A stretch of DNA of 64,000 nt from Ectocarpus siliculosus (taxonomy: Eukaryota; Sar; Phaeophyceae; Ectocarpales; Ectocarpaceae). Below are positions 6,663 to 54,519 of this stretch, piece after piece (within the stretch, counting starts at the first letter, position 1; each line of letters begins with the position of its first letter). The notes beneath the pieces were generated by a model. It saw only the letters and a list, made by a program, of their open reading frames with translations. It was not told where the DNA came from and ran no database searches. The stretch covers positions 603,759-667,758 of the forward strand of contig FN649743.1 in assembly GCA_000310025.1 (NCBI GenBank). Reading direction: 5' to 3'. Made by a program: the position numbers and the translations under genes.

Positions 6663-8619
6663 ACCCGTTGTCATGTGTAAGCGATTGCTGTCGCAGTCAC
6701 ACCATAGTTCACTTATTATCCCAACGCGTCATGGCACTCGTTTTCTAGAGAGGTTCGCCAATCAAATCAGCTTTTTCCAGAGTATCATCTTAGAATCGCA
6801 CGGTTGTTCCCCAGCGAGGAACGACTGTTGGGTCTAAAGAAGGCATCAAAAACGCCGGTTACATACCATAGGCTCTCGACCCAAACCACAGGGTTGTAGT
6901 CTTGTGTGGGAACTCAACCCGGAAGAAATACGTGGCCCGGCTACGCTTCCACTCACCTCTAAAATGCGCTACGGCCTCTTTACAGGCGAAATAGTACTGG
7001 GTAAGCATGCTTTGAGGAATAACGTAAGGACGATGTGTGGCTGTTGCAAATGAGGAACGAGGTAGTCTTCGGACCCACCCGAGGGTACAACAATACGTAA
7101 TGTCTCACCGCAACCGTGCAGCCCGTAACATATGCCGTGGACCAATATTTTTATCAAATGTGAAAGCATTGGTGCCTGCCTCTGGCTACGCACCACCGAC
7201 TCTTGACGCACCTATTATCGGGATCTCAAATGGAGGACCAAGCGCACAGAGCGATAATTTTTCCAGCCAACAAGCGCATGAAAAACATTCCAATTTAGAC
7301 TTTTCCACATGTTTTGCAACGTTTACGGGAAGCCCTTAAAATCTGGACTACTACTGCATCACATGCATACAATGAATCGTACGCCTCTCGCCAACGGTCG
7401 CAGTCTCACGGTTGTGCCTGCCTGCCATGCCCATGCTCTGACAGGATCGAAGACAAAAAGTACCGCAGTTGGGTACAAACACGTCCTCGATGAGCGACGA
7501 CCACAGCGGCGGATGCTAATTTGGTGAAGCCGGACTGTTGCTGGTAACGTTTGCAGTCCCCTTGACACGCCGCCGTTGCCCAACCATATTCGGAAACTAC
7601 GAATCTCATGCTAGAGGTAACCCTCCTTGCATGTTCGGTTCCTTGCCTCCTGCCAACACCAGGGGGTAGCTGGAGCCGGTAGCCACATGCATGTGTCGTC
7701 AGGTCTGTTCACACTTGCTCTCGACCATCTGGCGGTGCCCCACAAGTCTCGCACTGGCAGGCGTCATGTCGGCGATTCCATTCGCTGTGATGGGGAAGGC
7801 CACCCCTACCGGAGACAGCAGCTCTCTCGCCTCGAGGTCATAAGTAAGCGGTAGCTGAGAGGAAAGGAGGGCAAGGGCATTCGACACACGTTCGAGTCAG
7901 CACTGCCGGTAGTGTTGCTGTTGTTGATGGTCGTGGTGGTGTTGTTTCGTTCGTTATAATGAGAGGGGAGTCAGAGCCACCATACTCCAAACTTAAACCC
8001 ATTGAATCTCGCCGTCACCCTGATTGGTTTAATGATTCTGTACACGGTAGGTCTGACGAATGTCTGTACATCTTCAGCGATACGGCAGGGATAATTTTTG
8101 AGCGACGCATGAGCACCAGGTAACTTGTTCGTGATCTCTCCAGCAATGAAAGCTTCGGTGCAGGCGAGGTAACTTGGTACCTGTGTTCTGTAGCCTTTCG
8201 TAGGCTGTGTGCCACTCTCTCTCCTTCTCTCCCTCTTTTCCTCCTTACGGGACAACCGATCAATACACGAGTGTACATCTTACCCATCTGACTGTAGGGC
8301 ACTCGAGGCTAACCTACCGGGAGCACAAACATGTACCTCGCTGCCTCAATTCCGCGCATTTCCCGAACAATCCGACCACTGAATCGATGTCTTCTTCCAG
8401 CTAATGCAGCAGGCCTACAGGAGGGCAAAAATATGCTCATGATGGGAAGCGGGAGGTCTCCCGCTTCTGGACGTACTCCTGGCTGGGCTACAGAACGCTC
8501 CCGCACTTAGGAACCCAGGCAACCCAGGAGTTAAGGGTCGACGGACAAGGGGTTTTGACGCTGGCTCTTTTCCTATACTTTAATCCTATTCAAAGAAAGA
8601 AAACAACCTTCCCGCCAGG
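6663..8619. other. Intergenic, no feature recognised
   Basis: Only short overlapping frames on both strands. No domain, splice chain, repeat partner or RNA gene was recognised. Confidence 0.5.
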
Positions 8620-8987
8620 GTTAGGTGGCGCATTCTTCGGCCATCAGTAGAGGACACCTTGAAGAGGTGTCGTGCATGCTGGCACGTTCAGGTTTCAACT
8701 GGAGCTGAATATCGAAGGTCGCAGCAACCTCTGAAAACAGTCCGAAATCTGCGCCGGATCCAAGCGGCATCCAACATTTGTCATAGCTGTGTTCACCGCC
8801 ACGGACCATAGACCCCTGCACGGAGGGTTGTCAGCCGTAGCTGGTGGCAGTAAACCCACGGTTCAGGAGATTAGAGGCTCCTGTGACCTTCGATATTTCA
8901 GCTCCAGTTGAAAACCTGAACGTGCCAGCACGCACGATGCCTTTACATGGTGACTTCTACTCATGACCGTATAATGCGCCACCTAAC
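8620..8987. repeat. Foldback element with about 115-bp inverted arms
   Basis: The left arm (8620 to about 8737) and the right arm (about 8866-8987) are imperfect reverse complements. Both ends share GTTAGGTGGCGCATT, and the arms share GCTGGCACGTTCAGGTTT and a GGAGCTGAA-ATATCGAAGGTC segment. The central spacer is about 130 bases. No target duplication is obvious. The structure is that of a foldback or MITE-type element without coding capacity. Confidence 0.85.
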
Positions 8988-10064
8988 TCTCGAAACTGAC
9001 CTTGTTCGAGCGCCTTCCGTTTTGGGTCGCTTGACTTGAATTTAGAATCGTGTGAATTTTTGTGTTGATTTCAAAGGAGGCGTGCGGATGTAGACGCGTG
9101 ACATGTATGTTTTGGGCATCCTCTACTGCCGCCCTGTGCAAGAGTAAACTATTTCTGTTTTTCGCGATGCCTTCCGACTGGTCTTGTATGCCTGTTGTGC
9201 AATTTCTGGTGCTCTTGCGTTTGTTTTCAAAATTAGTCAACATCGCAATTCTTTGTCCGCAGACCCTTCCGAAAAATTGAGCCTAAAAAAACCCAAAAGA
9301 GCAGCATTTGTGAGCTCAGGTAAGATCTCCTACACTAAAACCTATGTAGCAACCATTCGTAGCAACCCCAGCCTCGGCCGAAACTAGAGGTTCTTAAGTT
9401 AAGTGGTGGCGCGTTCTGTATTGTTGATGAAAAAACCGATCTCTGTTCGCCGTCAACGCGGACAAAAAAAAATGGGGCCACCCCACCTTGGAAAACGGGC
9501 ACACCAGTGCCTTCAGCATCTGTCCATCGGGTTCCAAAAACTCTCCCACCGTGCTTGTTCTTCTGATGCCCACGGCTCTCTCAATGCTTCCCAACAACGG
9601 CGGTTTGTAATAGCAGAAACGAGCGACTGCAGTCTTCGCATGCCCAGTCCACATGGTAACTCCGCCTGTAGCTTATGGAGCCTTGATGCACACACGGACG
9701 CTGTTGAAGATAGAGCCCCTCAAGCAGCGTCAAACCGATGCTTAGTTTGCTCTTCAGAGCTCAAGACACGGAAGATTAGTTTATCGGAGACTGCTGCTCT
9801 GAGAGCTGAGAGCTGAGAGCTGAGAGCTGAGAGGAAGCTGGCATGCGGCGGGATTTGTTCTGAGGGAGTTCCGCAAGTTCGCCAGGCCCAAATGCGGCGC
9901 AATTGCATCGTGCGGCTTGATTAGAACCCAGCGAACCGGCACACTAAGCCGCTCTATCTCCTCGTAAGTTCGTAGGGTAGGCACCAGAGGTCGTTGCCTT
10001 GCAAATGCGCCAAACACGTGGGCCCGAGGCACTGCTCGAACCCTAAAGCTGAGGCTCCTTCGCT
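8988..10064. other. Region upstream of the TPR gene
   Basis: No gene recognised. It holds the GAGAGCT minisatellite and presumably the promoter and 5' leader of the gene starting at 10065, but no core promoter element could be assigned with confidence. Confidence 0.45.
9801..9835. repeat. GAGAGCT heptamer tandem repeat
   Basis: Four consecutive perfect GAGAGCT units plus a partial fifth, about 230 bases upstream of the predicted start of the TPR gene. Confidence 0.9.
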
Positions 10065-13000: not shown

Positions 13001-16000
13001 ACGAGCTTCCCGGGCGTACATTTTGTTGCATTGTCGTCTTCACCAATGGCTCAATCGTCCCGTGCATGTAGCTTACACGATGCCAATGGACGATTGTTGT
13101 TGTGCGCTGCAGCGCAAGCAGCGAGGGTACCTCACCGTCGAAGAAGAAGAGGACTACGCCCTCGAGCAGCTGCAGCAGCAGCACCAACAACGATGTTTCT
13201 CACACCGTGCGGCAACAGCCGCCCCCGGCCCAGCGACCTCCCGGCGGAGCAACACGGAAGGGTGCGGTGGCGCACCTACCAAGCCAGGCACTGCCGCCGC
13301 CTCGCCAGTCAACGCCACTCCCACCCCGGGTAGGGAAAGAGCTACGGGCCACCCCGCCCGAACCTCGCCATCTCGTTCTCGACGCCCCGTGACCCGGGCG
13401 GCAAAACCGAGGGAGGTAGTCGTCAGCAAGGACTACTCGTTAGGGCGTCACCCCCCACCGATACTGGCTGCCGCTGCCGGAGCTCCCGGTGCCAACGGCA
13501 GCGCAAGCGGCGGGGGGGGTCACGCTACGGGGGCGGCGAAGGCCGTCGGCGGGGGGCGGGGCGGGTTCCGCGGCAGCAAGGCCATCTCGGTGCTAACCAG
13601 GGGCGGGGGTGAGGCGGTTGTCATGGTGCCCAAGCGGCCGCGACCCATCTGGTTCGCCGGGAGCGGCGCGATTCAGGCCGAATGGTCGGCCCTACCGGGG
13701 GGCGCGCGCGTGGTGAGGGATCTGGAAGGGCTGGAGGAGCAAGGAAGGCGAGTTTTTCAACCTTCGTCAAGCCTAACTGAACAGTAGCAGTCTGTGGCAG
13801 ATCTTGGGTTTGGAGGGTGATGTTCCACCCCCTGCCGAACTGCCGAACTGCCGCCCCCCCCGGTGTTTTGCCATCGGGGTTGGGTTTTCGTCGCTTGGCA
13901 ACGACGTTGTAAAACAAGCCGCCGCCCCCCGGTGTTTTGCAATCGGAATTGGGTTCTCGTCGCTTGGCAGCGACGTTGTAAAACAAGCCAAGTCACTTCG
14001 TGAACTCGGCAACTAGGTTACCGTTTTTTACCTCTGTTTTTTTTTTTGCGGTAACCATGAATGGTGGTCGAGTAGATCATGTTGTGCGGGGTCGAGAACC
14101 CTCACTCCGCGCAACGGGGATGATTGCACCACGTCGTGTTAAAATGGTCAAGAATCCTCGAGGCAGTTACACAGTGCTTGCAACTGTCTCTGGAAGTGAA
14201 AGCACCTGAAAATAAATTAAGTCATACGCAGCTGTCATTCGTATGCAAGGAAGTAAGCACAAGATGCCGAACACCCTTAGCAGGATGCAGCTCACCCTTC
14301 ATGCGACTCGCCGAATACCTCACGGGGCTTCGCGCTTGGTGATGTGAGAGCCTGGTCCGGTGAGAACCCGGCGTGCTCCGTCCCGGCTTTGTAGGGATGC
14401 GAGGTCAATGGTCTAACGACTACGGCATGCACGACTATGAGTACACCCCCCCCTGCCGAACTGCGTGACTCTTCGTGTATAGAGTAAACCGAGTAAACCA
14501 AGTCGGGTTCCGGTTGGCACCGACATGATGCTTCGAGGGGCGTGTCTTGGAGAGCGCACCCTGAGGGGTGTACAGCGCTTGGTTGTATGGTTTGAATGCC
14601 TTCGGTTTGTCTGTGTGTGGAGACCATATCGGCCGAGTTACCTCACAGCTGGTATAGGAAGAATATCTGAGCTGAAAAGCACAAGTAACCGGAGGGTTTT
14701 GGTCATCTTTCAACGCTCTCTTTGGCGCTACTAGAGCATGCTTTACGTAGCTCATGGTATACCGGCGGCAAGTCACCCAATACTGTAACGCGACTTGTCA
14801 CCGCATATGACCTTCACCACCGCATGCACGGTAGGTGAGTGGGGCGAAATTTGTCTCCGCTGCTACTCCCTGGTGCTACTCTTCCGCCTATTTATTATAC
14901 ACCCGACACCCAACTGACTTACTCACGTTTGCGCCCCTCGAACAACCATGCCGCTTGAATTGGCGCCCTAGCCAGTTGGGGTTGGCCGTTTGCTAGACGC
15001 GCCTTCGTACCCCTTACGTGACCTCCGGAATGCTTCGAACGCAACAGGTACGCGAAGTACGTGGCCGTGGTGGAGGGGTTGCTCACGGCCCACCTTCGTG
15101 CAGACGACCAGAGAGGTATGCGGCACGCCAGAAGCGTTTTTGGTTCGGCGCCTGAGCCGGGGGGCGTTCCCCGTGGTCGACACCTCAATCCAACTCCGTG
15201 CTGGGAGGGATTCCCCAAGTTTTTGTCTCGCATGACAAAAGTGTCTGTGTATCCGAGGAGATTGTTATCATACACGGTGAGATTGCCGCTGCGAAACGGA
15301 TTGTTGCTACTGCAGCAGATCGTTCGCACCCCGTTCTAGAAAGTCTCATCAGAAGATAAGTAAGAGCACTTGGTCATTTCCGCTCAACGAAAAAAAAAGA
15401 AAACAGACAGCACTTCAGATGTTGGGTGAGCCTTGTGATGCACAGGGCTCTTCGACCATACGACAACACGAAATGATCGCAGGCCCGTCGCAGCTAGTGA
15501 AGAAGCTGTGGAGGCAGCTGGTGGCAACATGCATTGCGTTTGGGGTGCGCAGCACCGAGAACCAGCGGTTCGAGAGGGCCTTGGAGCTACTCAAGCGGGC
15601 TGGGATACTCCTCTCTAGGTGCGTGTGAGCTCGTTGTCGTCGCGTTTCCGATCGGTCATGTATCCGCTTCGACAAAAAAAAAATATTTGTAGGTATAGGA
15701 TTCTCTTGCTCTTCCCATTCAGCGGGGCTTGGCAAACAAGCACCATTGAGCGAAAACAATAGCACCGGATGGGCCAGGAGCGGTCATGCGCTTCTCGGCC
15801 TCGACCCGGGCTGTTAGCGGGGTACTCCACCCCCGCGCACTGACCGACATACGTACACCCCAACAGCAGCACCGAGGGCTGCCGTGAGACTGAACGCTCG
15901 AAGCTCGAAAAAACACGCGCAGGCAAGTGCTCGACAAGCACTCCACCCTGGAGCTCCGGGCGTTCGTGAACGACGCCTACGGGCTGTACTTCCTCCGGAG

Positions 16001-23207: not shown

Positions 23208-24204
23208 ATTTTGTGCTTTCTGGGTGGGAGAAAGCTAGCGTGTGCCACCGCCGTGACTGCTACCTACCTACAGGCGACGGCCGACCACAAAAATATCATC
23301 CATAGGAGATCGGCAAAATCACGAAACGGGCGGGTGCGGGGTGATGTTCATCGGAGATGAACCTCGGCTAATCCGACTGGCTCTCGGCCCATTGTCGTCG
23401 TATATCGAAGAAACCAAATCCCGGTTGCTGATGCACAGTCTACTAGTGGAAGTTATGCTTTTGAAGCGTCGGCGGACGCAAATGACCCCGTGTATGTGTG
23501 GTATATCTACCAGCTACGGCAGCAAGGGGTGTACGTTTGAGAAGAGAATATGAAATATGCATATCATGGAGGAATCTGTTTACGGCACAACCCCTTCGGA
23601 TGATTCTCAATTGAAGATTCACCGATAGAATCCCCATCTCCCGATGCAAGATATGCTGATCCGAGAACATGTAGCTACATTGTGTACGTACAACGTTCTA
23701 CCACTCGTTCTCATGAGAGGTTTGAGCTTAAGTGTTTTCTGTGTCCTCTACAATAGGTACGCTGCGCATCGTTCCGAATCTTCAGATGAGATTCATCCGA
23801 AGGTGTTGCGCCGTAAGCAGATTTCCATAGTACTCATATTCATATTCTGAGAGATTCTCTTCTCAAACGTACACCCCTTGCTGCCGTAGCTGGTAGATAG
23901 ACCACACACACATGGGGTCATTTGCGTCCGCATGTATCCGACGCTTCAAAAGCATAACATCCACTAGCAGGCTGTGCATCAACAACCGGGATGCGATTTC
24001 TTCGATATACGACGACAGTGGGCCGAGAGCCAGTCGGATTAGCCAGTCGGATTACCCGAGGTTAATCTCCGATGAAAATGACATTACCGCACCCGCCCGT
24101 TTCGTCATATTGCCGATCTCCCATGGATGGTATTTTTGTGGTTGGCCGTCGCCTGTAGGTAGGTAGGCAGCACGCGGTAAAAAGCTCCCACCCAGAACAC
24201 AAAA
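23208..24204. mobile_element. Large foldback element, about 1 kb
   Basis: Left arm 23208 to about 23627 and right arm about 23777-24204 are imperfect reverse complements over more than 400 bases. Outer ends share TTTTGTG and TTCTGGGTGGGAG; inner parts share GCAAGGGGTGTACGTTTGAGA, GAAACGGGCGGGTGCGG and CAACCCCTTCGGATGA with its divergent partner. The loop is about 150 bases. Indels and substitutions show both arms drifting independently. No open frame with a recognisable transposase is present, and flanking duplications were not identified. Confidence 0.88.
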
Positions 24205-29070: not shown

Positions 29071-30039
29071 AGTGTCGGGTCTGGGGGGCAGTTCGCTATG
29101 GATTTTGTTGTGGCGTTTGCAGTTGCGACGGATCTGGGGGGCTGTTCGCCATGCATGTGTGGTTTTGCGATATTCTGTTCGCACAGCGGCGAGAGACTGA
29201 ATGCACGCGATTTCATGTAGGAGTCAGCTACATATACTGTAGCGGGGCCCGGCGTACGTAGCACGCTTGTTTCGTGTTTCTGTGATGTTCCTCTTCGTCG
29301 GAGATTTCTGAGATTCTACTTCGTCGCAGTTCATCTTGAGGCGGAAATGGCTCGTGTTTGACGTACGCTAGTCTATGTACGTATGACTGCGTAGCATATA
29401 TATTTGATTCACACTGAATCTTGAGATCCAGGAATCGCCTCCGATGCGTTGATATGTACGGCATTCCTGTTCGTGTTTGTTTTTGGTTAGTTTTTTTCTG
29501 GGTTTTGACTTGTTTTTATTTTTGACCCGAACTTTGTGTTGCATGCGAAATTCAATGATAACTGCCGTAATCTGCTGTTTGTTCTGCTGTCCAGAAGCAT
29601 GGGGGGGGGATTTGTGTACCATGTTTCTAGTCGCAGCACCTGCAGAGCAGAGTGCTTTTGGAGTTTTGTTCAAGTTGGATTTGTTTCGTTATGGTTTTCT
29701 TTGCGTTTTTTTCGTTCTGCTGTGTTTTGCGTCGAGAATCAGGGAGAGGGGGTGAATGTGTTGTCATGATTCCAGACGCACCACCAGCGAATGCATTGAT
29801 GCTTTGCTTGTGTAAGCAAGGCATGTTTCAGCTGGGGGGCTGTTTCGTGCACTTTGATGTTTTGAGATTCTCTGTCGATTGCAAAGGAGAGGGAGAAAGC
29901 GCAGGCAGATCTGTACGTATGTTGCGGGGAAATGTTCCAGCTGGGGGGCTGTTACGTATTGATATTGGTATTGATATTGCTGTCTTGTGCCACAGTCAGT
30001 GAGAGAAGGGTGGCACATAACTTGTTGTTTCGGGAGGTC

Positions 30040-31297
30040 TTGCAGCAGGCGAGCTGTTTGCATGTTGCAATATTTTCTATCGTTTATTGGACAACAGCTG
30101 AGGCACCGATTCGCATGTGCGCGCTGTTTAGGATTTGGTCCTTGGACGTTGCATTGGAGGAAGGATTTGACATGTTTTGACGAGTAATGGTTGGGGTCTT
30201 CGTACGTTCCAAATGCTCGTTTTGATTGGTCAAGACGTTGAAACTTCGTTTTGTTCGAGGATGTTGTGTCAACTCTTTTGAAGCGGTTTTTCCAGATCTG
30301 TCCGTCACCGTGCCGACGCTTTTCTGATGTAGCGCAGATACTTGTTGGGTACTCTTCTGAGGATGATTCTGTTGTGCTGACGGTTTGAGATTATATCCAG
30401 GGGCGAGCACATTGGGTTCGTGGATAAACTGGTGGAGACGCATTGTGTTCAATGCTTACCCAGTTTTGTAGAGGATGTTTCTCAAGTGGTTATTTTGTGT
30501 TTTTGTATTGGTTAGAAGGTAGTCACAAAGGACTCGCAGATCGCAATTGTTATCAAGCAGGGGGGCTGTCTGGGGTACTTGGACAAAATATCCGATCTGG
30601 AGAGTATATGTGTGCGGGGGGTATGCTATTGGGGGTCCAAGTGCGGGGCCCCTCGAGAGACTTGTATTTGGGGAGATATTGCAGCAGGGGGGCTGTTTGC
30701 ATGTTACTATATTGTCTATCGTTTCTTGGACAACAGCTGAGGCACCGATTCGCATGTGCGCTGGTTAGGATTTGGTCCTTGGACGTTGCATTGGAGGAAG
30801 GGTTTGACATGTTTTGACGAGTAATGGTTGGGGTCTTCGTACGTTCCAAATGCTCGTTTTGATTGGTCAAGAAGTTGAAACTTCGTTTTGTTCGAGGATG
30901 TTGTGTCAACTCTTTTGAAGCGGTTTTTCCAGATCTGTCCGTCACCGTGCCGACGCTTTTCTGATGTAGCGCAGATACTTGTTGGGTACTCCTCTGAGGA
31001 TGATTCTGTTGTGTTGACGGTTTGAGATTATATCCAGGGGCGAGCACATTGGGTTCGTGGATTAACTGGTGGAGACGCATTGTGTTCAATGCTTAGCCAG
31101 TTTTGTAGAGGATGTTTCTCAAGTGGTTATTTTGTGTTTTTGTATTGGTTAGAAGATATTCACAAAGGACTCGCAGATCGCATATGTTATCAAGCAGGGG
31201 GACTGTTTGGAGTACTTGGATACAATATCCGATCTGGAGAGTATATGTGTGCGGGGGGTATGCTATTGGGGGTCCAAGTGCGGGGCCCCTCGAGAGA
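30040..31297 (+). repeat. Tandem duplication, two units 637-639 bp apart
   Basis: Segment 30040-30660 recurs at 30679-31297 with high identity by eye. Shared words include GACAACAGCTGAGGCACCGA, GATCTGTCCGTCACCGTGCC and TGGGGGTCCAAGTGCGGGGC. Each unit contains an LTR start. The opposite strand has matching long open frames in both units, which reflect the duplication and not a gene. Confidence 0.88.
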
Positions 31298-31475
31298 GAG
31301 CCCGCGCATGTGTTCTGTCTATGTTCTGTATGTCTGCAAAGACTACTGTGTACATTGTGCTGGAAGGAGCACGGGTGTCTAATAATCAAGGTTATGTTCA
31401 TCTGCATCGGTCTGGGGTTGTCATAGTCCCTAGATCTACTCATATTACCGTGGGTGAGCACGGTAGCCCCCGGGG
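31202..31475 (+). mobile_element. Partial copia-type LTR, + orientation
   Basis: Begins TGTTTGGAGTACTTGG directly after a purine tract (GCAGGGGGAC). It is the reverse complement of 32225 down to about 31965 over about 260 bases, with GTGCTGGAAGGAGCACGGGTG identical in both. It breaks off near 31475, where sequence related to an opposite-strand gag begins. Confidence 0.65.
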
Positions 31476-31751
31476 GAAGGCGCGGGGGCCTCTAACGTGA
31501 AATTTCGCACCTTGCGTTGCCTCCACCAGGTAATCAAGAGCTCGCTCGTTCTCCTCCACAAGCTGTGGCCCGTACCTCTCGATCAGCACGCTACGAGGAG
31601 GGCCATTGATCAAAACCACGGGGTTGTCAGATCTCTGCAGTGTGTGGGCCAAACCCTTGCTGGCCATGAAAATCTCGAACACCTGGCGGAAATCAACGAA
31701 GTTGCCGTCGTAGACAGTCGGCTTTCTCTCCGCTTGCCTCCTCTTGAACAT
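31440..31751 (-). pseudogene. Copia gag-like fragment
   Basis: On the minus strand an open frame runs from 31751 to 31440: a basic start (MFKRRQAERKPTVYDGNF), then FVDFRQVFEIFMASKGLAHTL and a helical end (LVEENERALDYLVEATQGAK). Its place after an LTR and primer-binding-like site on the same strand, and its helical character, suggest the N-terminal part of a copia gag. It is truncated at the junction with the + strand LTR near 31475. Functional gag is not expected. Confidence 0.5.
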
Positions 31752-31924
31752 TAGTTGTTGTGTGGACCCTTCCGCCCATGTCTAATCTCCGGACCTTCCT
31801 CCGGTATACACTCCCCCAGCCGGCCACCCGGCCATATTCCCAGCTGCCTTCCCAGCTTTACAGTTCTCCGCAGCCCTCTCCGCTGCTGCCGCCCTCTCCG
31901 CGGCATGTTGAACATCCGACACCA

Positions 31925-32225
31925 ATCGTCTTTTAAAACGATTAATCGTGTTCGAGGGGCTACCGTGCCCAACCACGGTACTATGAGTAGATCTGGGGAC
32001 TACGTTAACCCAGGACCGATGCAGATGAATACAACCTTGATTGTTAGACACCCGTGCTCCTTCCAGCACAATGTACACAGAGTATTCTTTGCAAACATGC
32101 AGAACATAGACTGAACACATGCGCGGGCTCTCGCTCGAGGGGCCCCGCACTTGGACCCCCACTAGCATACACCCCACACACGTGTACTCTCCCGATCGGA
32201 TCTTCACATCCAAGTACCCCAAACA
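31925..32225 (-). mobile_element. Copia-type 5' LTR with primer-binding-like site, - orientation
   Basis: Read on the minus strand it starts TGTTTGGGGTACTTGGATG and mirrors the + strand LTR at 31202. Immediately inside (31924 to 31913, minus strand) is TGGTGTCGGATG, close to the TGGTATCAGAGC site known for copia elements primed by initiator tRNA-Met. The exact LTR end is uncertain because no clear terminal CA precedes it. Confidence 0.5.
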
Positions 32226-32416
32226 GGGAAAGAACGATGTTGGACGAAGATTGACATTGGTCAATGATTCCCTGATTATCGTGTTCGGAGTATCGTATCG
32301 TGACTGGGAGGCCGAGACGGATACGATTTCCCAACAAGCGTTTGCCTGCCGAGGATGTTTGTGGCGCAGTTTCGTGTGACCCGCAACAAGGAGATTTCAA
32401 TGGGTGGTGGGATTGA

Positions 32417-36290: not shown

Positions 36291-37124
36291 AAAACAAACG
36301 AAAGCCCCACCAAAGATCTTTCCTAGGTATCCCTGTCATCACACATCCCTGCCCGCTACAACTCCCCAGGCGGAGAGTACATACCTTCCTCTCATCACAA
36401 GGTCAGACCCAAATCTCTCATGTAGAGAATGCTGCAAGTAGACAGACAGACGTCGACGGTACATAGGTCTGACCACACGCTGCTGTGGCCTGACTATATA
36501 CGAATGCGTGTGTTCCAGTGATCCAGATGAAGGCTGCCCGTCATACGAAGTTCGATACATCTCTGCTCGTTTCTCGTAATGGTTTGGATGGGATGAAGGA
36601 AGGAAGGAGCAACAGTACACAGGTGTGAGGGACACGCCAGTCGATGGCTTTGAGGCGAGCTGTTCTCGCGATCATCACAGACAGATATGCGAAATACGAA
36701 AGTAGTTCAGGGATTGAGATTCGTCAGCTTTCTTTTCAAGTTTGATGAGACTCCTTCGCCCTCTTTCCACTCATCCCGTGTTCCTCTCTATGTATCATCC
36801 CCACGTATCTGCTCACATTGCATCTGTCATCGCACTGGGTGACACGTGTAGCCCGTTTGCCCCTCCCTGCCGACCACGCCCTCAGCAACCATCCTTCGCA
36901 TGAGTTTTTCGGGATATCTCCGCTGCAGAAATGACGTGCATCTTCCGGAGCACAAAAACACTGGGCTTCGCCTCTGAACACACCACCAAGCGCGCTATCA
37001 TGACAGCGAGGACGACGTTGTTGGCAGCAGCGGTGCCAATATCACCTCCGCCACCATTACGTTGGAGCTGCCGCCGCAGCAGAGGTCGACATGCGTCTTT
37101 GAACAGTGAGTTTTTCTGCTGTTA
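36291..37124. other. Spacer upstream of RCC1-like fragment
   Basis: No supported gene. A possible exon-like reading frame near 37045-37107 (DDVVGSSGANITSATITLEL) runs into a GTGAGT-type donor, and could be an upstream piece of the RCC1-like remnant. Confidence 0.35.
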
Positions 37125-37400
37125 TTGGTGATGGGTGTTGACCGAGCTGCGGCCAGCGAAACTCTAGCAGCTGGGGGTGCCCTTGCATGTGCCACAACCA
37201 CGACGGGCGGTGTGAAATGCTGGGAGCTCAACAGCAAAGGGCGGCTGGGGTACGAGAACACAGCCAAGCGTGGAGCAGACTCGACTACTCTAGTGCAGCG
37301 CTACCCTACGTTGACCTTGGTACCCGACGCACGGCGGTGTCCATCACAGCGGGAGACCAACACACCTGCGCCGTGCTTGAAGAAGGAAGCCTCAAAGTAG
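37125..37400 (+). pseudogene. RCC1-type repeat protein fragment
   Basis: The frame reads LAAGGALACATTTTGGVKCW, then ELNSKGRLGYENTAKRGAD. After a one-base frame change near 37300 it reads YVDLGTRRTAVSITAGDQHTCAVLE in pieces. The Gly-rich pattern with VKCW, LG-Y and AGDQHTCAVL is typical of RCC1-type beta-propeller repeats, here about one and a half. The frameshift, the absence of further blades and the array that starts directly downstream indicate a truncated copy. RCC1-type propellers act in protein binding or nucleotide exchange; nothing specific can be said for this piece. Confidence 0.65.
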
Positions 37401-37611
37401 ACAGACTAAAGGCCCTAGTTGCCGGGTATCGTTGGGAACAAAGCGTGAGTTGCGACAGCTGCATGCGGCCGTTGAATCCGCACTCACAGCCCCCCATGAG
37501 CGTGCGACGCCTCATCATAGGGGAAACTCCATGCCCCCTCCCTCCTGTCTCTCTTCCCCGCACGCTGCGGGTGAGCCCACCCATCTCACTGATGCCTGCG
37601 GAATGGATGCC

Positions 37612-39460
37612 GGCCGGCCACTCCGGGAGGACGGGGCAACTCGGGTCCCCGTCCGCCGTGGCTCGCTGCAACAGCTCGACAAGGTACTGCATATAGCGTC
37701 CTCCCAACGCACCGGGCAAGCCACGGTTCTTCGCCACTATCCTCAGATTCCACCGGAGGTTTGAACTCCAGCAAAGACTCGGCGTTGCTGGAATTCAACC
37801 TCCGATGGAACTTGAGAATGATGGTCAAGAACCGTCGCTTGACCGCGGCGCTGGGAGGGAGTACCTTGTAGAGAGGATGCAGCGGGCCACAGCGGACTGG
37901 GACCCGAGTTGTCCCGTCTTCCCAGAGTGGGCGTGGGCGGCCGCCAAAGGCTTCTTTCTCTCCGCGAAAGTGCGACTTGGAGACGGGGCAACTCGGATCC
38001 CTGTCTGCCGTGTCTCGTTGGATCAGGTCGACAAGGTACTGGTTCAAGCGCGCTCCTAACGCCGCGGGCAAGCCGCAGTTGGTCACTATGATCAAATTCC
38101 ACTTTCGCGGAGAGAAAGAAGCCTTTGGTGGCCGCCCACGCCCACTCTAGGAAGATGGAGCAACTCGGGTCCCAGTCCGCCGTGGCTCGCTGCATCAGCC
38201 TGGCAAGGTACTGGTTGAATTGCCCTCCTAACGCCGCGGGCAGGCCGGCCGCTGTTGTTGGCCACCATCTGTGGGTTCCACCGGAGGTTGAAATCCAGCA
38301 ATCAGCTGAAATTCACCCTCTAGTGGGACGTGAAGATGATCGCCAAGCTGCGCGACCTGCCGGCGGCGCTAGGAGGGCACTAAAACCGTACCTTGTCGGG
38401 TTGATCCAACGCGACACGGCAGACTGGAACCCGAGTTGCCTCAGTAGGTGCGGGTGGCCACAAACGGCTTGGTCTTCTCCGCGAAAGCGTTTTCGACCAC
38501 GACGTCGATTTACAAGCGGTGGGTCCGTAGAGAGGAGGCGAGGGTTCACGCCAGGAAGACGAGGCGCAAATTCACCGAACCGCTGGCGGTCCGGCCACTC
38601 CTGGAAGCCGGGCAACTCGGGCCCGAGTCCGCCGTCGCCGGCTGCATCAGCTCGACAAGGTATTGGATGTAGTGCCCTGACAGCGCCGTGGGCAAGCCAC
38701 GGTGCTTGGCCACCGTCCTCAAGTTCCACCGGAGGTTGAAACTCGAGCAAGCTCTCGGCTTGGCTGGAGTTCAATCTCCGGTGGAACCTGAGGATGATGG
38801 CCAAGAACCGTGGCTTGCCCGCCGAGCTGGAAGGGGGGCACTGGTATACAACCGGTTCCTCGTGGAGCTGATGCAGCGGGCCACGGCCGACTGGGACCCG
38901 AGTTGCCCCGTCTTCCCAGAGTGGGCGTAGGCGGCCACCTCAAAGGCTTGTTTTTCTCCGCGAAAGTGTTTTGAACCACGACGTCGATTCACAAGCGGGT
39001 TGCTGAGGTGGGTGCTTAGACAGCAGGAGAGGGTTCACACCTGGGAGACGAGGCGTAAATCCACCGAATCGCTGGTGGCCCGGCCACTCCTGGAAGGCCC
39101 AGCAACTCGGGCCGGGTCCACCGTCTGCCGTCGCCCGCTGCATCAGCTCGACAAGGTACCAGTTGTAGTGCCCTGACAGCGACGTGGGTAAGCCACGGTG
39201 CTTGGCCATCATCCTCAAGTTCCACCGGAGGTTGAAACTCGAGCAAGCACTCGGCGTGGCTGGAGTTCAACCTCCGGTGGAACCTGAGGATGATGGCCAA
39301 GAACCTTGGCTTGCCCGCCGAGCTGGAATGGCGGCACTGGTATACCACCGGTTCCTCGTGGAGCTGATGCAGCGGGCCACGGCCGACTGGGACCCGAGTT
39401 GCCACGTCTTCCCGAGTGGGCGTGGGTGGTCGCCAAAGGCTTGTTTTTCTCCGCGAACGT
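37612..39460. repeat. Alternating inverted-repeat array with coding-like units
   Basis: About nine units of 110-215 bases alternate in orientation. Forward units: about 37786-37975, 38308-38488, 38757-38970 and 39245-39455. Reverse units: about 37612-37770, 37980-38090, 38099-38290, 38570-38740 and 39040-39232. The forward sense shares CAGCGGGCCAC, GACTGGGACCCGAGTTG and CTCCGCGAAAG. Translated in its sense each unit gives variants of MAKNRGLP, then YLVELMQRATADWDPSCPV and PEWAWA...GFFLSAKV, so the peptide is partly conserved among units on both strands. Unit joins are perfect small palindromes (TTCCACCGGAGGTTGA with its complement). I do not recognise the peptide. Stops and shifts occur in some units, so no single gene can be proposed. 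Confidence 0.8.
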
Positions 39461-40301
39461 GTGCTGTATGTGGAGGACCATGCGATGAATACCAGCCTCC
39501 TTTGCGCCTAGATGTGCTGTAGCCATGCAGCAAACAGATGGATCGATCATCAACTGGCGAAATCAGCAAGCATCCCGTCGGAAGGTCAGGGACAGCAGTC
39601 GTGGATAGCAGCACGTGGCGCGGTTAGGAGCAGCAGCAAGTTTACGGAGAGAGGCGGTGCTCTGCGGTGAGATCCGAGCAAAATTGTGATGTACGTAATA
39701 AGTGCTTGTTATTGTTGTTGTCTTCACATTAAAAGCCGTTCCGATCTCTCTCTACCCAGTACCTTCATATGTCCGTACTGATCCAAAACTTGACGCGGCC
39801 GATTCCCGTGGTCACAGGCTAACTTACCCTAAAAAGGTACACTCAAATAAACTAGCCCCGAGGGGTCCGCAAGTCAAAAGAAATCAACGACAGATATTCT
39901 GGAGTCCTCCGCTCCCTCTGCGCGCTATGCGAGGTAACAACTGAGACAACGAGTCAGCGTGACGGACCAGTAAGAAAGAGGTGCACCCCCTTGGTTCAAT
40001 CTTGGTACTTCACAGCGCAAGCAGAGACAAGGCCATGTGACACAGAAAAAGAGAGAAAAAAGAGGGACAATAGAGAAAAAAGAGAGAAAAAATATATATA
40101 AAAGGAAACACGAAGGAAAGGGAAATGCAAACGAAAAAGAGTGAGGACAAAAAGGGACCAGGGCGAAAATAACAAGAAAAACGAGAGAGAAAAAGGCACA
40201 CGGCGGAGAGACCACTAACGAACAAGCAAACACGCAAACATGGCCACCAACCAGCGATACATTGTAATGGTACGTCATCACTAGTGGGGGGTTGGTGCAA
40301 C
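39461..40301. other. Spacer with purine-rich tract
   Basis: No gene recognised. The + strand at about 40048-40195 is strongly purine-rich (AGAGAAAAAAGAGAG type), which opens long Phe/Ser/Leu frames on the other strand without biological meaning. Confidence 0.45.
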
Positions 40302-40322
40302 GGTGCAGCGTTGGGGGGGGGG

Positions 40323-40911
40323 TACTCATAGTCGTGCATGCCGTAGTCGTTAGACCATTGACCTCGCATGCCTACAAAGCCGGGACGGAACACGCCGGGT
40401 TCTAACCGGACCAGGCTCTCACATCGCCAAGCGCGAAGCGCCGTGAGGAATTCGGCGAGTCGCATGAAGGGCGCGCTGCATCCTGCTTAGGGTGTTCGGC
40501 ATCTTGTGCTTACTTCCTTGCGTACGGATGACAGCTGCGTATGACTTAATTTATTTTCTGGTGCTTTCACTTCCAAAGACGGTTGTAAGCACTTCGTAAC
40601 TGCCTCGAGAGTGCTGACCAATTTTAACACAACGTGGTGCGATTATCCCCCTTGCGCCGAGTGAGGGTTCTCGACCCCGCACAACATAATCTACTTGACC
40701 ACCATTCATGGTTACCGCAAAAAAAAAAATAGGCAAAAAAATGCGGTAACCTGGTTGCCGAGCTCACGAAGTGATCGGCTTGTTTTACAACATCGATGCC
40801 AAGCGACGAAAACCCAACCCCGAAGGCAAACACCGGGGGGGGAGGCTTGTTTTTCAACGTCGTTGCCAAGCGACGAAAACCCAACCCCGATGGCAAACCA
40901 TCGGGGGGGCG
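40323..40911 (-). mobile_element. SINE-like element, copy 2, in LINE 3' region
   Basis: Reverse-orientation partner of 13844-14448. It is flanked by direct repeats GGTGCAGCGTTGGGGGGGG (starting 40302 and 40912), different from those of copy 1. This shows independent insertion. The two 67-base leading units, the A-box-like word (TGGTCAAGTAG on the minus strand) and the C-run at the 3' end are conserved. It sits just past the LINE coding end in the same orientation. Confidence 0.78.
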
Positions 40912-40951
40912 GGTGCAGCGTTGGGGGGGGGGGGGATTGGCTAAAAGAAAT

Positions 40952-43176: not shown

Positions 43177-46100
43177 ATGCCAGTGGTGCTGTCGTCTCGC
43201 TGGGGGATAGAACCGGTGACTGTTGGCACCGCCTGCACCGACGATGGTCCTTTGCCGCTTCCCTTCGAAACGTCCACAACAACGGCAGCAGGAGAGGCGG
43301 CGACACAACAAGATTATTGCTGTGATGACCGTGCCATTGGTGAGGACGGAGATGAAGAAGACATGGAGCTCACCGGCAGGACGCTGTGGGACTGTACCCA
43401 AGTGCTGTGGGATTTAGTCGCAGACCCCCGCGAGGGCAACACGTTTACGGTCAGGGACAAGGTACATGATGTTTGCGTGCCCTGCGTATGTAGACTTTGT
43501 AGGCATGTACAACGATTTGGACAACATGCTCGAGCTGTTGTTACCGATTTTTCCAGGATTTTCCACCCCCCCAACGGCGCGTTGTTGTTCAATAGCTTGC
43601 TGGGCCTCGCGTTGAAGGAAAGCTTGATTACGGTAGATAGCGGTGCCAGCGAGCTCGCCGCATGCATGAGCCAATACAAGCTGGGCCAGCCAAGAAGCTC
43701 ACTTTCGTTGTTTCGCGTCTCACGCTGCCAATTCCACGAGTTTTGGCTTGAAATCTTAGAAGACAATCGAGGATGCGCCGGTGCCAGAATTTTTCGAATC
43801 TGAGTTGATTTGGGTATTAAATGCTCAATTGGCGGTGTAGTGGGGGATGCTTCCGGTACTGAAATCAGCATAAAAAATTTACAGATTAAGCCGAAATTTG
43901 GTGTGCACTTACCTGGGAGCATTGCGAGAACAATGATGGTAGTTACAAGGCTCAGGTCATCTTCCATCGAAAGTTATGGCCTCGTAAAATATCCTCTACA
44001 ATACAACATTTTCCTGTATATTCCTATATATATTTTCGTCCCTGCGCCCAGGTGTAGAGGCCAGTAAGCAATTTTCTATTTACACCACGATTTTTACGAG
44101 TTGGAATCTGAAATTGTGACACGTGGTCGGTGGTAGTATAACGAAGACCTTGACTGGCCGTACTTTTTTTTTTTTTTTAGTCCCCCTATCGCGACCAATC
44201 AAGACGCCATTTTCCCTTTAATAGGGCTACCTCGTGAAAAAAAAAAAGTACGGTCAGTCAAGGTCTTCGTTATACTAACACCGACCACGTGTCAAAATTT
44301 CAGATTCTAACTCGTAAAAATCGTGGTGTAAATCGTTTTCAACCCTTTTGTAGGCGTCTTGGCTGGCCCAGCTTGTAGGATACACAGCAGTGGTGCCGCG
44401 GTCCGATCGTACGGCAGCAAGATTATCCAGCTATTTTCTGAAATAAAGAAACGGCGAAAGAAACTGGGGGCAGCCGCCGGGCCGCCGGCACCTCGCTGTC
44501 TCCTACGGTATTCGGTAGCTCAGAAATACCTCGAGCTCCAGAGTAAATGTGGTGTGCGAGTGGGCCGACACTGCTAAAGTAGTCGTTATCGCGTGCGGAG
44601 TCGCCAGCGAACACGAGACGCGCGGAGTGCAAAGTGAAAAAAATGGCTGTCTACATTGATGTACATGCGGTGCAACTTTTCAGTTCTACTCACCCATCCT
44701 CAACGCGCGGGGTGTCCGCGCCACGCTGAGTTATTTGGTCCTACAAAACGTCGGTGCCCCTCCCCCAATCGGCGTCCCCCCCGTGGGTCTTCCCTGATTC
44801 ATCATTCTTCATCAATGAATCTGCTCGATACAACTGGCACAGGTTACCGTCGACTACCATGCTCACACCTCTCTTCCATGACAGCAGTGATGCACCCGTT
44901 TCGTGTCTTCTCAATCTCCACAAAAATGTGGCAATACACCGTGTGAGCTGCCGCCGTGTGGCTGGTAAACGTCGGATTGCGTTGGCGTGGAATCTGTGGA
45001 GGTTTCCTTGATGTAAGTCATTCTGCCACAAATCCCCTTGTCCCAAAGCACTGCTGTCCCACGGATGCAGACTACTTCGTTGCCTTCTCCCTCAAGCGAC
45101 TCACAACTGTTAAATATCTCTCAACCCGAAAAACAGCAAGAAGTGCCTTGACCGTGTGCTATTGGGTGCGTGTATTTTTTTGTCTGTTGTCTCTTGTGCG
45201 TGGGGCGCCAGCGCGTGATCGAGCTCGGCGGAGGCACGGGAGCCCTGTCCGTGGGCCTTGCACGGTCTGAGGCTGCGTCGGTCACTTGCACGGACCTCCC
45301 GTGCCATCTAGCCCTGATACAGTCGACGGTGGTCGCCAACGCTCGAACGACCGCCAGCTGTCGCCGAGGTGTCCTAGGCAGTGACGTTGGTGGTGGTGGT
45401 GGTGGTGGTTGCGGTGGTGGTAGCGGCGGTGGAAACTGCGGCGGCGTTGTAGCGGGAACAAGTCGTGGAAGCGACCCACCAGCGGCGACGGAAGTGCCGG
45501 CAGCAGCCGCGAGAGAGGCTAGAGTTCGCGTGGTAGCCCTGCGGTGGGGTGAAGAGGAAGACATCGCGAACGCGAGGGCATTGCCGTTCAACAACCATAG
45601 CGGTGAACGCAGAAGATGTAGCAGCAGCAGCGGCGGTGGCGGCGCAAGCGATGACGAGTCTTCGGCGTTCGACGTGATCGTGCTCAGCGAGGTGCTGTAC
45701 TGGCCCGCGCTGGACCTGCTGCAGGAGGACACGAGAGAGCCTTTGCGGCGCACTCTTGTGGGGCTCTCCAAGCCCGGGACGAAGGTCATCTTGATCTACA
45801 AGGAGAGGTGAAAATAACACAAAAAACACGTGCGAGAAACGTGTTGGTTCACCCGAACCAGGGTTAGGATGATCGAGCTGGACGGGGTTCATGCTTTTGG
45901 CTTGGAGGCTAAGAGCGAGTAGAGCCGAACAGACGAACACCAACCAACCGTTCGTTTTCCTGGCTGTGGTGGTTTTGACGATGCCCACGCCCACAATGCC
46001 ATGGCCGAATGTGTACAAGCGGTTGAATTTCACGTTTCTCTGTGAACCCCACTTGGCCTGGCCGACCTTGCACCAACTCGCGAAATTTAGAGACACTTAA

Positions 46101-52100: not shown

Positions 52101-54519
52101 GGGTGTAGGCGACTTTGGTTCGCAAGCACGAGCTCACGGCGCTCGGGCTGTTGCTGCTGCTGCTGTGCGCCCCCCTCTACCCCCCCCTCTCCTGCCGATA
52201 CCCCCTCCTCTTCCTCCTTGCCCCGATCCCCCCCCGCTCCCGGGTCTGTTACTGTAACTTCTATCCCATCATCGGCGGCATCGTCCCCGGACGATGTCTC
52301 CCCCTCGATCACCAAATCGTACACCTTCAGGAAACCAGGAGCAAGACGGAGGGGAGGGTGGGACGGGTCACTTTAGACAAGTTTGGGGTGGGCGCGCTGG
52401 GGCAATCACTTGCTGCCACAGGGGCACATTTGATTCCTAGACTTGCCTTCACTGCCCGCGAGAACACGAATAGGGGGGGGGGGGTCAATAGTTGTTGGGC
52501 CGTTCCTCCTTTCGAGAGTCATTTCACGATGGCACTCTCGTCTCATTCGAGGGATAGTGCTTTCTTCTGTTGAGTGAGACGACACGGCTCGGCGAAATGC
52601 CACGACAAAAAAAAAACGACGCTACTGCTTGGGTGCAATGCAGGACAAGAGAACAGACGGGGGGGCCTGGAACAGGGCAAAACAGGGCGGCGTTGTTGGA
52701 TAATGCCTCGCTTGCGGTAAGATAGGTCGTGCTTGAACAACGTGGGGCGGCGCCTCTAGAGGCTTTCGCCTGCCTACAGCGGTGTCAGCCAGCGTGCCGG
52801 GCACCAGTAGTTCAACGTGCATGTGGGACGGACGCACCAAGCGTAAACTCGTTTTCGCGTACCGTGTTGTCGAAGGAAGCGTTCAGCCGTCGAACCTCCC
52901 GGTCGAGCACGATCTTGTCCACCTTCACCAGGATAGGGTCATCGGCCGGCCGCCCGACGCCGCCGCCAGGCCTGCTGCTGTGGCCCCTGTTGTCGCTGTT
53001 CGAGTACACCACCCCCGGCACCTTTCCGGCTGCGGATTCACCGAATTGATTCCGTCCCGCCCGGGTGCAAGCAATCAAAACATTCCATATTTGGGGGGGG
53101 GGGGGGGGGGGGGGGCCCGCCCAAAAAGGGGGGGGGGGGGGGGGGGGGGNNNNNNNNNNNNNNNNNNNNNNNNNNNNNNNNNNNNNNNNNNNNNNNNNNN
53201 NNNNNNNNNNNNNNNNNNNNNNNNNNNNNNNNNNNNNNNNNNNNNNNNNGGGGGGGGGGGGGGTTAGTCGAAGCTCCTTTAACTCCGGTCGGGCACAACG
53301 GGCAACTGCAGCTCCCGACGACTACAATGCTGCCTTGTACTGCTGTACCGTGAGAGCAGCGGCTTGAACGGTTCGAGGAAGACTTATGTCTTCGACAGCC
53401 ACATTTTGGAGATATAACGAGAGAGCAAGATGCAGGGGACCGGGCGGAGCGTGTGGATTTGGAGTAGTGAGGCGGGCAGGGTGGCGGAGGTCGAGAACCA
53501 GGTGGAAGTGGACGAGAGAGTGCATCGTGACATCGTGACAGAGTCTTCAAGGGTATAGATGTGCATGAAACACAAAAAGGCTAAAAAATGCTGAGCAACT
53601 ACTGTAACGATGCGGTACCTGAGCATTGAGCAGAACAAGTACACTGCTGGCCAATGGGTGTGCACAAACACACACGCCTGTGGATCAATGGATGTACATA
53701 CATAAGACAAGGATGATCTCTGCTGCGCTCAGCTGTGAGCATTTGAAAATCCATTCGCCATCAAACAAATCCCGTCTCTTGTAATTATTGGCGCACTCAC
53801 CGGGGCAACGCGTGAGCCTAGAGCCCACGGCGGTAAAACCACGGCAACAACGACTGGCTGCAGCAGCACCCACGCCACCACTCCTGCGGACGACACATGG
53901 CCACACTCAACACCACAATACCGATAAGTAGCCATGTCGTCAATGGTGAGCTATCTGCAACGGGGAGGTACTTGGAGTTTGCTACACGAGGGGTACCAGA
54001 GAGTAGGGCAAAGACAGCCAGCGGTGCCTCTCACGGCAAGCAAACAGGAAGAAGCAGCAGCCCAGCAGCAAGCAGGGGCGTTCCCCGCTCACCTCTGCGA
54101 ATCCTCCTGGCCCCCCTGCTGCCGTACTCGCCGCGCGGCCTGACCTGAACCCTCATCTCCCGGATGATGGGTCCCGAGTCCTCCTCCTCCATTGGCGGCG
54201 TCCTCACCACATCGTCCTCCTTGGGGATACCGAACACAAGCTTCCGAGTCGCTGCCGCAGCAGTAGTACTCGGTGGAGTTTCCTCTGCTGCTGCTGCAGT
54301 AGCGGACGAGAGGGGTCTTGCCCTCGACGGCACCGGCGCAGCTCTGCCAGTAGCAGCAGCAGCTGGAGCTGCTGTTGTTGCCGTTGTTGCTGCGGCACCT
54401 GATGAAGGCCGTCCACGAACAACCAGCGAGGCGGTAGCGAGCAATGCCTGCTGCTGCTGCTGCTGCAGGGGGTGAGCCGGTGCCCGCCGTGAGGCTGCCG
54501 TTACCAATCGGCAAAGCAT
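49158..54519 (-). CDS. bL25 (Ctc/TL5) family organellar ribosomal protein, 7 exons
   Basis: Minus-strand exons 54519-54093, 53029-52863, 52324-52099, 50819-50696, 50329-50233, 49707-49645 and 49262-49158 sum to 1209 bases with all phases matching: 402 aa plus stop. Residues 1 to about 90 are Ala/Arg/Ser/Gln-rich without acidic residues, fitting a mitochondrial (or plastid) transit peptide. bL25 landmarks follow: GARRIRRAGKVPGVVYSN (exons 1-2), VRRLNASFDNTVYDLVIEGE (2-3), LANQSRLHP, then NWIRYKAGRKYPIPIKFIN, then MVPKWLYLDLE and LRVSDLMMPEGILLHRA. The family binds 5S rRNA in the large subunit. Exon 3 carries an acidic Gly/Glu/Gln insertion absent from bacterial proteins. The C-terminus is an acidic tail. 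Intron 4 has a GC donor (AG|GCGAGT), required by phase. The start is the first ATG of the open exon. Confidence 0.88.
49388..49469. repeat. Two 41-bp tandem units in bL25 intron 6
   Basis: Adjacent units 49388-49428 and 49429-49469 share TCGTTTTCTGCACCC / CCGTTTTCTGCACCC and ATCCGTTCTT with four or five differences. Confidence 0.88.
53150..53249. other. Assembly gap (100 N) with poly-G flanks
   Basis: Exactly 100 N, so a placeholder size. It is flanked by long G-runs (from about 53094, with a CCCGCCC interruption, and 53250-53262). It lies in the first intron of bL25. True length and sequence are unknown; the G-runs may be real or a read-end artefact. Confidence 0.98.

Follow-up and report, generated by a model that had tools for sequence, protein, structure and literature searches.

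A palindromic array in the Ectocarpus siliculosus genome, very probably decayed from a truncated exon copy of an exonuclease-related gene family

Fold-back and MITE-like inverted repeats are built from closely spaced inverted arms. Inverted triplications via an extrachromosomal dimer are described for ODIRA and related strand switching at short inverted repeats (PMC4689423). Mu killer of maize is described as co-linear with its target, which it silences (PMC3440606). For Ectocarpus, homologues of Dicer, Argonaute and RdRP as well as small RNAs from transposable elements have been reported (PMC4513859).

The array described here is located in a 64-kb window, i.e. the whole stretch of 64,000 nucleotides that was analysed. 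Like fold-back and MITE-like repeats it has closely spaced, inverted arms, and more such repeats occur in the window; unlike them, its arms derive from a coding fragment, and in six solitary loci (L001-L006) the corresponding exon was not seen as an inverted pair. ODIRA (PMC4689423) is resembled in the short hinge, the inverted copy beside the original and the later change in copy number, but the arms of the array are about 200 bp long and diverged. As in Mu killer (PMC3440606), part of a multicopy gene has been duplicated in inverted orientation and hairpin RNA is possible in principle, but the units match the solitary copies L001-L006 at an overall identity of 60-79%.

Self-comparison and alignment delimited the array at 37506-39461, with nine related units of approximately 110-270 bp each in both orientations and short hinges between them. 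The units are arranged in the order R1 F1 R2 R3 F3 R4 F4 R5 F5 (R, reverse; F, forward), with four forward and five reverse units. The original prediction of about nine units of 110-215 bases starting at 37612 was correct in number; the size range had to be widened, and the left edge was moved to approximately 37506 because of about 100 bp of additional family sequence carried by R1. Strict alternation of orientation, as originally assumed, did not hold, since R2 and R3 are adjacent and both reverse, which is the single break. The features are as follows (window coordinates).

R1, 37506-37774, minus strand: founder-like unit, alone among the nine in extending about 100 bp further into family sequence (alignment of L002, L003 and L005 from 37505-37509 through 37774)
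Open frame covering R1, 37306-37794, minus strand
F1, 37776-37972, plus strand: unit with deletions, its tail departing from the family sequence (inverted arms I4 and I22, and alignment)
R2, 37981-38092, minus strand: truncated unit in the middle of the imperfect palindrome 37635-38440, where alternation is broken
R3, 38093-38299, minus strand: closest to F1 (120-nt inverted arms 37860-37979 and 38093-38212, 87%)
F3, 38303-38487, plus strand: diverged unit with weak grouping with R2 (91.8/67)
Spacer, first copy, 38490-38591, no strand: repeated at about 38969-39080 (direct repeats D6 and D7)
R4, 38592-38741, minus strand: sister of R5 (99.6/100)
F4, 38763-38968, plus strand: sister of F5 (99.3/99), with an 8-nt insertion common to F4 and F5
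Spacer, second copy, 38969-39080, no strand
R5, 39081-39237, minus strand: sister of R4
F5, 39259-39461, plus strand: sister of F4
Direct repeat of 879 bp, 38139-39462, plus strand: 38139-38969 against 38592-39462 (79.8%), spanning whole dyads

The best self-match of the array scored 771 bits in direct and 324 bits in inverted orientation; the maxima of 50 dinucleotide shuffles were 26.5 and 37.4 bits, respectively. The array is real, and the predicted joining of related units in both orientations at short hinges was confirmed by self-matches far above the shuffles. R2 is the midpoint of an 850-bp imperfect palindrome (69%) at positions 37635-38440. In the alignment, the hinges are unlike one another between dyads, and the tail common to the F units departs from the family sequence. 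A genome search with the spacer (38470-38625) gave two matches only, both being the array's own copies, and the spacer was dismissed as a piece of the dispersed family from which the units derive.

Palindromes are a known product of fold-back chimeric reads, and an assembly artefact of this kind was considered. Fold-back chimeras yield near-identical arms. Since the units differ among themselves by 7-36%, misassembly appears unlikely; direct and inverted repeats of unequal divergence are moreover nested within each other, and an origin from chimeric reads is regarded as extremely improbable. Within the window, a run of N occurs only at 53150-53249.

Just upstream of the array, an RCC1-like fragment was located at 37110-37696 in two frames, with borderline scores. 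The frameshifted RCC1-type fragment of the original prediction was thus recovered in two frames adjoining the array, but its scores were below the cut-offs (RCC1_2, 21.8 bits, cut-off 22; RCC1-like domain, 17-18 bits, cut-off 150). Positions 37100-37520 had no second match in a genome search that skipped very common words, and this flank was rejected as a repeat. Further closely spaced inverted repeats were found in the window at 23247-24178, 31203-32226, 44078-44333 and 8617-8990, the one at 44078-44333 being palindromic almost without interruption (83.5% over 261 bp). Two direct copies of approximately 641 bp lie head to tail at 30020-31297 and are 95.5% identical. Two oppositely oriented copies (90%) of a repeat of about 630 bp lie at 13824-14453 and 40313-40936 and carry short tandem units at one edge. 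This repeat is also located next to the exonuclease-related gene copies of L008 and L009.

A genome search with 37612-37830 located solitary copies of the unit on at least six other contigs (C90, C30, C425, C15, C14 and C199), the counts of this search being lower bounds. The six solitary loci were mutually alignable, with blocks reaching 2.5 kb in some pairs and shorter ones in others, L006 being the most distant; the dispersed family is therefore larger than the unit, which represents a small part of it. More distant relatives found by peptide search of the genome were located on C34 (two copies) and C3, one of them within a 423-residue open frame. The peptide of the C34/C3 relative gave a weak further match on C129 (E 5.1e-6, one stop). 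L006 is collinear with the C34 gene across several open frames. Neighbouring open frames of the C34 gene matched the Pfam family DNA_pol_A_exo1 (3'-5' exonuclease) with 25.1 bits at a cut-off of 23.6; matches to DUF6729 in this gene were marginal (27.3 bits in one frame, 24.6 in another, cut-off 27). The only match of the DUF6729 model in the genome was again on C34 (25.9 bits) and below the cut-off, so that this label rests on marginal scores; no mention of DUF6729 was found in the literature searched. No Pfam family was matched by the 66-residue unit peptide or by three array frames, and the array unit corresponds to another part of the gene than the Pfam domains. The derivation of the cassettes from a real gene, one of the options originally offered, is supported by the family on other contigs and by the relatives in the C34 gene. 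A viral origin of the parent family was rejected after one scan (viral_contigs) with the 330-residue frame of L006, in which four pattern matches were obtained and none confirmed.

The C34 and C3 copies (L008, L009, L010 and L011) are 99.6% identical over about 5 kb, and a further stretch of about 1.5 kb is 100% identical up to a run of N; the copies run into a tandem repeat on one side and into a run of N on the other. This near-identity may reflect either a recent duplication or an assembly effect. A 370-residue open frame at L007:1807-2919 (minus strand) matched a DDE_1 transposase with 100.8 bits; it adjoins the C34 gene and lies outside the stretch shared by the copies at C34:791 kb and on C3. 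Approximately 460 bp at L005:2251-2710 adjoin the family exon and are missing from L003 at the same point; this segment is MITE-like, with 143-bp inverted arms (85%).

The history of the array was analysed with a tree of the nine units and seven outside copies (194 columns). R4 and R5 grouped at 99.6/100 and F4 and F5 at 99.3/99; R3 was placed with F1, F4 and F5 at 79.6/73, and R2 with F3 at 91.8/67. Deep nodes were weak (array clade 76.2/39; F1+F4+F5 0/46; R1+R4+R5 without support of its own). Since R4 groups with R5 and F4 with F5, copying involved an entire mirror-image dyad; whole repeats were duplicated as blocks. The alternative, that several independent snap-back events gave the reverse-forward pairs, is consistent with the presence of four hinges and with R1 being about equally far from R4 (76.9% identity in the tree alignment) and F1 (75.5%). 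However, a separate snap-back origin of each dyad would place R4 with F4, which is contradicted for R4F4/R5F5 by the near-full support for R4+R5 and F4+F5; in addition, the 879-bp direct repeat covers whole dyads. Repeated independent snap-back, as contained in the original prediction, therefore failed for R4F4/R5F5 and may apply at the R1F1 end; as a general account of the array it is improbable.

In its simplest form, the history would comprise a founding inverted duplication, the copying of dyads and one larger inverted duplication. As the identity of R1 and R4 is not above that of R1 and F1 and F1-F4 identity amounts to 85.9%, simple copying of one dyad does not account for R1F1 and R4F4. 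A single founding inversion behind all dyads is likely but weakly supported by the sequence comparisons. Alignment with L002, L003 and L005 identified R1 as the only one of the nine units in which family sequence continues for approximately 100 bp outside the shared part, and R1 is likely to be the founder of the array; R4 and R5 may have kept a shorter, diverged remnant of its family tail. Since 37635-38440 is an imperfect palindrome centred on R2, R3 is probably an inverted copy of F1. Inverted duplication is visible at two scales, in support of the palindromic duplication that was originally suggested. A dyad is approximately its own reverse complement, so that copying in either direction should keep the alternation.

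Variants of the predicted peptide were present on the sense strand of the units. Statements on reading frames were based on open frames and translations; a mechanical indel count was not used, as it assigned one or more frameshifts to each of the 16 rows, the open L007 frame included, and did not separate units from solitary copies. The core is open throughout in R1, R4 and R5, and R2 is open but truncated; F1, R3, F3, F4 and F5 are frameshifted and/or stopped. The shared peptide on both strands was therefore recovered as variants, but its continuity is broken in five of the nine units. Changes at codon positions 1, 2 and 3 numbered 7, 6 and 4 between R4 and R5 and 3, 5 and 1 between F4 and F5, i.e. 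10, 11 and 5 in these two youngest pairs, with 5 of 26 at third positions. The corresponding numbers were 4, 7 and 10 for F1-F4 (10 of 21 at third positions, some excess) and 5, 10 and 9 for F1-F5 (9 of 24). Rates at the three positions, each calculated over non-independent pairs, were 0.235, 0.242 and 0.266 in all 36 unit pairs, 0.182, 0.128 and 0.203 in 15 pairs of solitary copies, and 0.177, 0.170 and 0.282 for R1 against the six solitary copies; the last comparison retains a trace of coding ancestry. The codon pattern proposed as a check on the unit alignment was flat over the 36 pairs, with an excess in F1-F4. Given the proportion of third-position changes in the youngest pairs and the five shifted or stopped units, the peptide looks inherited from a coding ancestor and not maintained, on small numbers.

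Related, coding-derived cassettes in both orientations would also be expected if an inversion-based diversity system were active and altered an expressed product by flipping units. The cassettes are not intact as a set, since five of the nine are shifted or stopped; R4/R5 and F4/F5, the sister pairs, retained their orientation, and the hinges differ between dyads. This part of the original prediction was not supported, and such a system is very hard to credit here.

The dyads are predicted to fold strongly, at -201 to -257 kcal/mol for 319-341 nt (energies without shuffle baseline), and an inverted copy of a candidate target gene that is able to fold is present. This property would suit a source of small RNAs, in which transcripts of the inverted repeats are diced and silence the parent family, in the manner of Mu killer or of a nascent microRNA gene derived from an inverted copy of its target. 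Ectocarpus is reported to possess Dicer, Argonaute and RdRP homologues (PMC4513859). The hinges matched microRNA-precursor models with at best 45.3 bits (E 1.7e-7, cut-off 100), and the longest exact match of the array in the nine loci examined was 21 nt, the length of a single small RNA, in L001, L002 and L003. However, exact matches to the C34/C3 loci were at most 14 nt long, and the Rfam matches of the hinges, all below the cut-off, were scattered over several unrelated families, as expected of any hairpin. MIR3454 was discarded as a lead, as the literature under that name was unrelated by title.

Stem pairing has not been kept either. Arm identity within dyads was not above that across dyads (R1-F1 82% vs. 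R1-F4 83%; R3-F3 73% vs. R3-F1 80%; R4-F4 78% vs. R4-F1 79%; R5-F5 78% vs. R5-F4 78%). Changes on both arms that keep pairing numbered 0, 0 and 1 vs. 10, 23 and 25 lost Watson-Crick pairs in three overlapping dyad comparisons (R3F3 left out, G-U not counted as pair), in total one vs. 58, with 0 of 10, 0 of 23 and 1 of 26 changed pairs kept. Compensatory change maintaining the stems was not evident in these three comparisons. A hairpin source of small RNAs is therefore given little probability, and still less is given to the specific proposal of a young hairpin locus restricted to this lineage, a proto-microRNA cluster before covariation whose transcripts would feed silencing of the exonuclease-related family.

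The locus is very probably a non-coding, decayed array grown from one truncated exon copy of a dispersed 3'-5' exonuclease-related gene family, and most likely does nothing for the cell. This reading combines the family match, the long flank of R1, the duplication of dyads as R4F4/R5F5, the palindrome around R2, the five broken units and the pairing that was not maintained. The founding inverted copy would have originated at a short hinge, by synthesis that was either hairpin-primed (snap-back) or strand-switching; dyads would then have been copied through unequal exchange or slippage, and one further, larger inverted duplication would have occurred around R2. The weak deep nodes, the open frames of R1, R4 and R5 and the third-position excess in F1-F4 count against such debris, as does the consideration that a young hairpin RNA could be workable without covariation.

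The structure is real but ordinary, very probably a gene fragment that was multiplied into a palindromic array and has since decayed. Ordinary steps suffice to reach an array that alternates and bears a peptide as soon as a mirror-image dyad is in place, since direct and inverted copying should both retain the alternation; the likeness of the peptide on both strands would be inheritance from a coding ancestor. Inverted and direct duplications, nested within one another, can still be read from the array, and small RNAs, if detected at the locus, would make it an example of hairpin genes that originated from their target gene.
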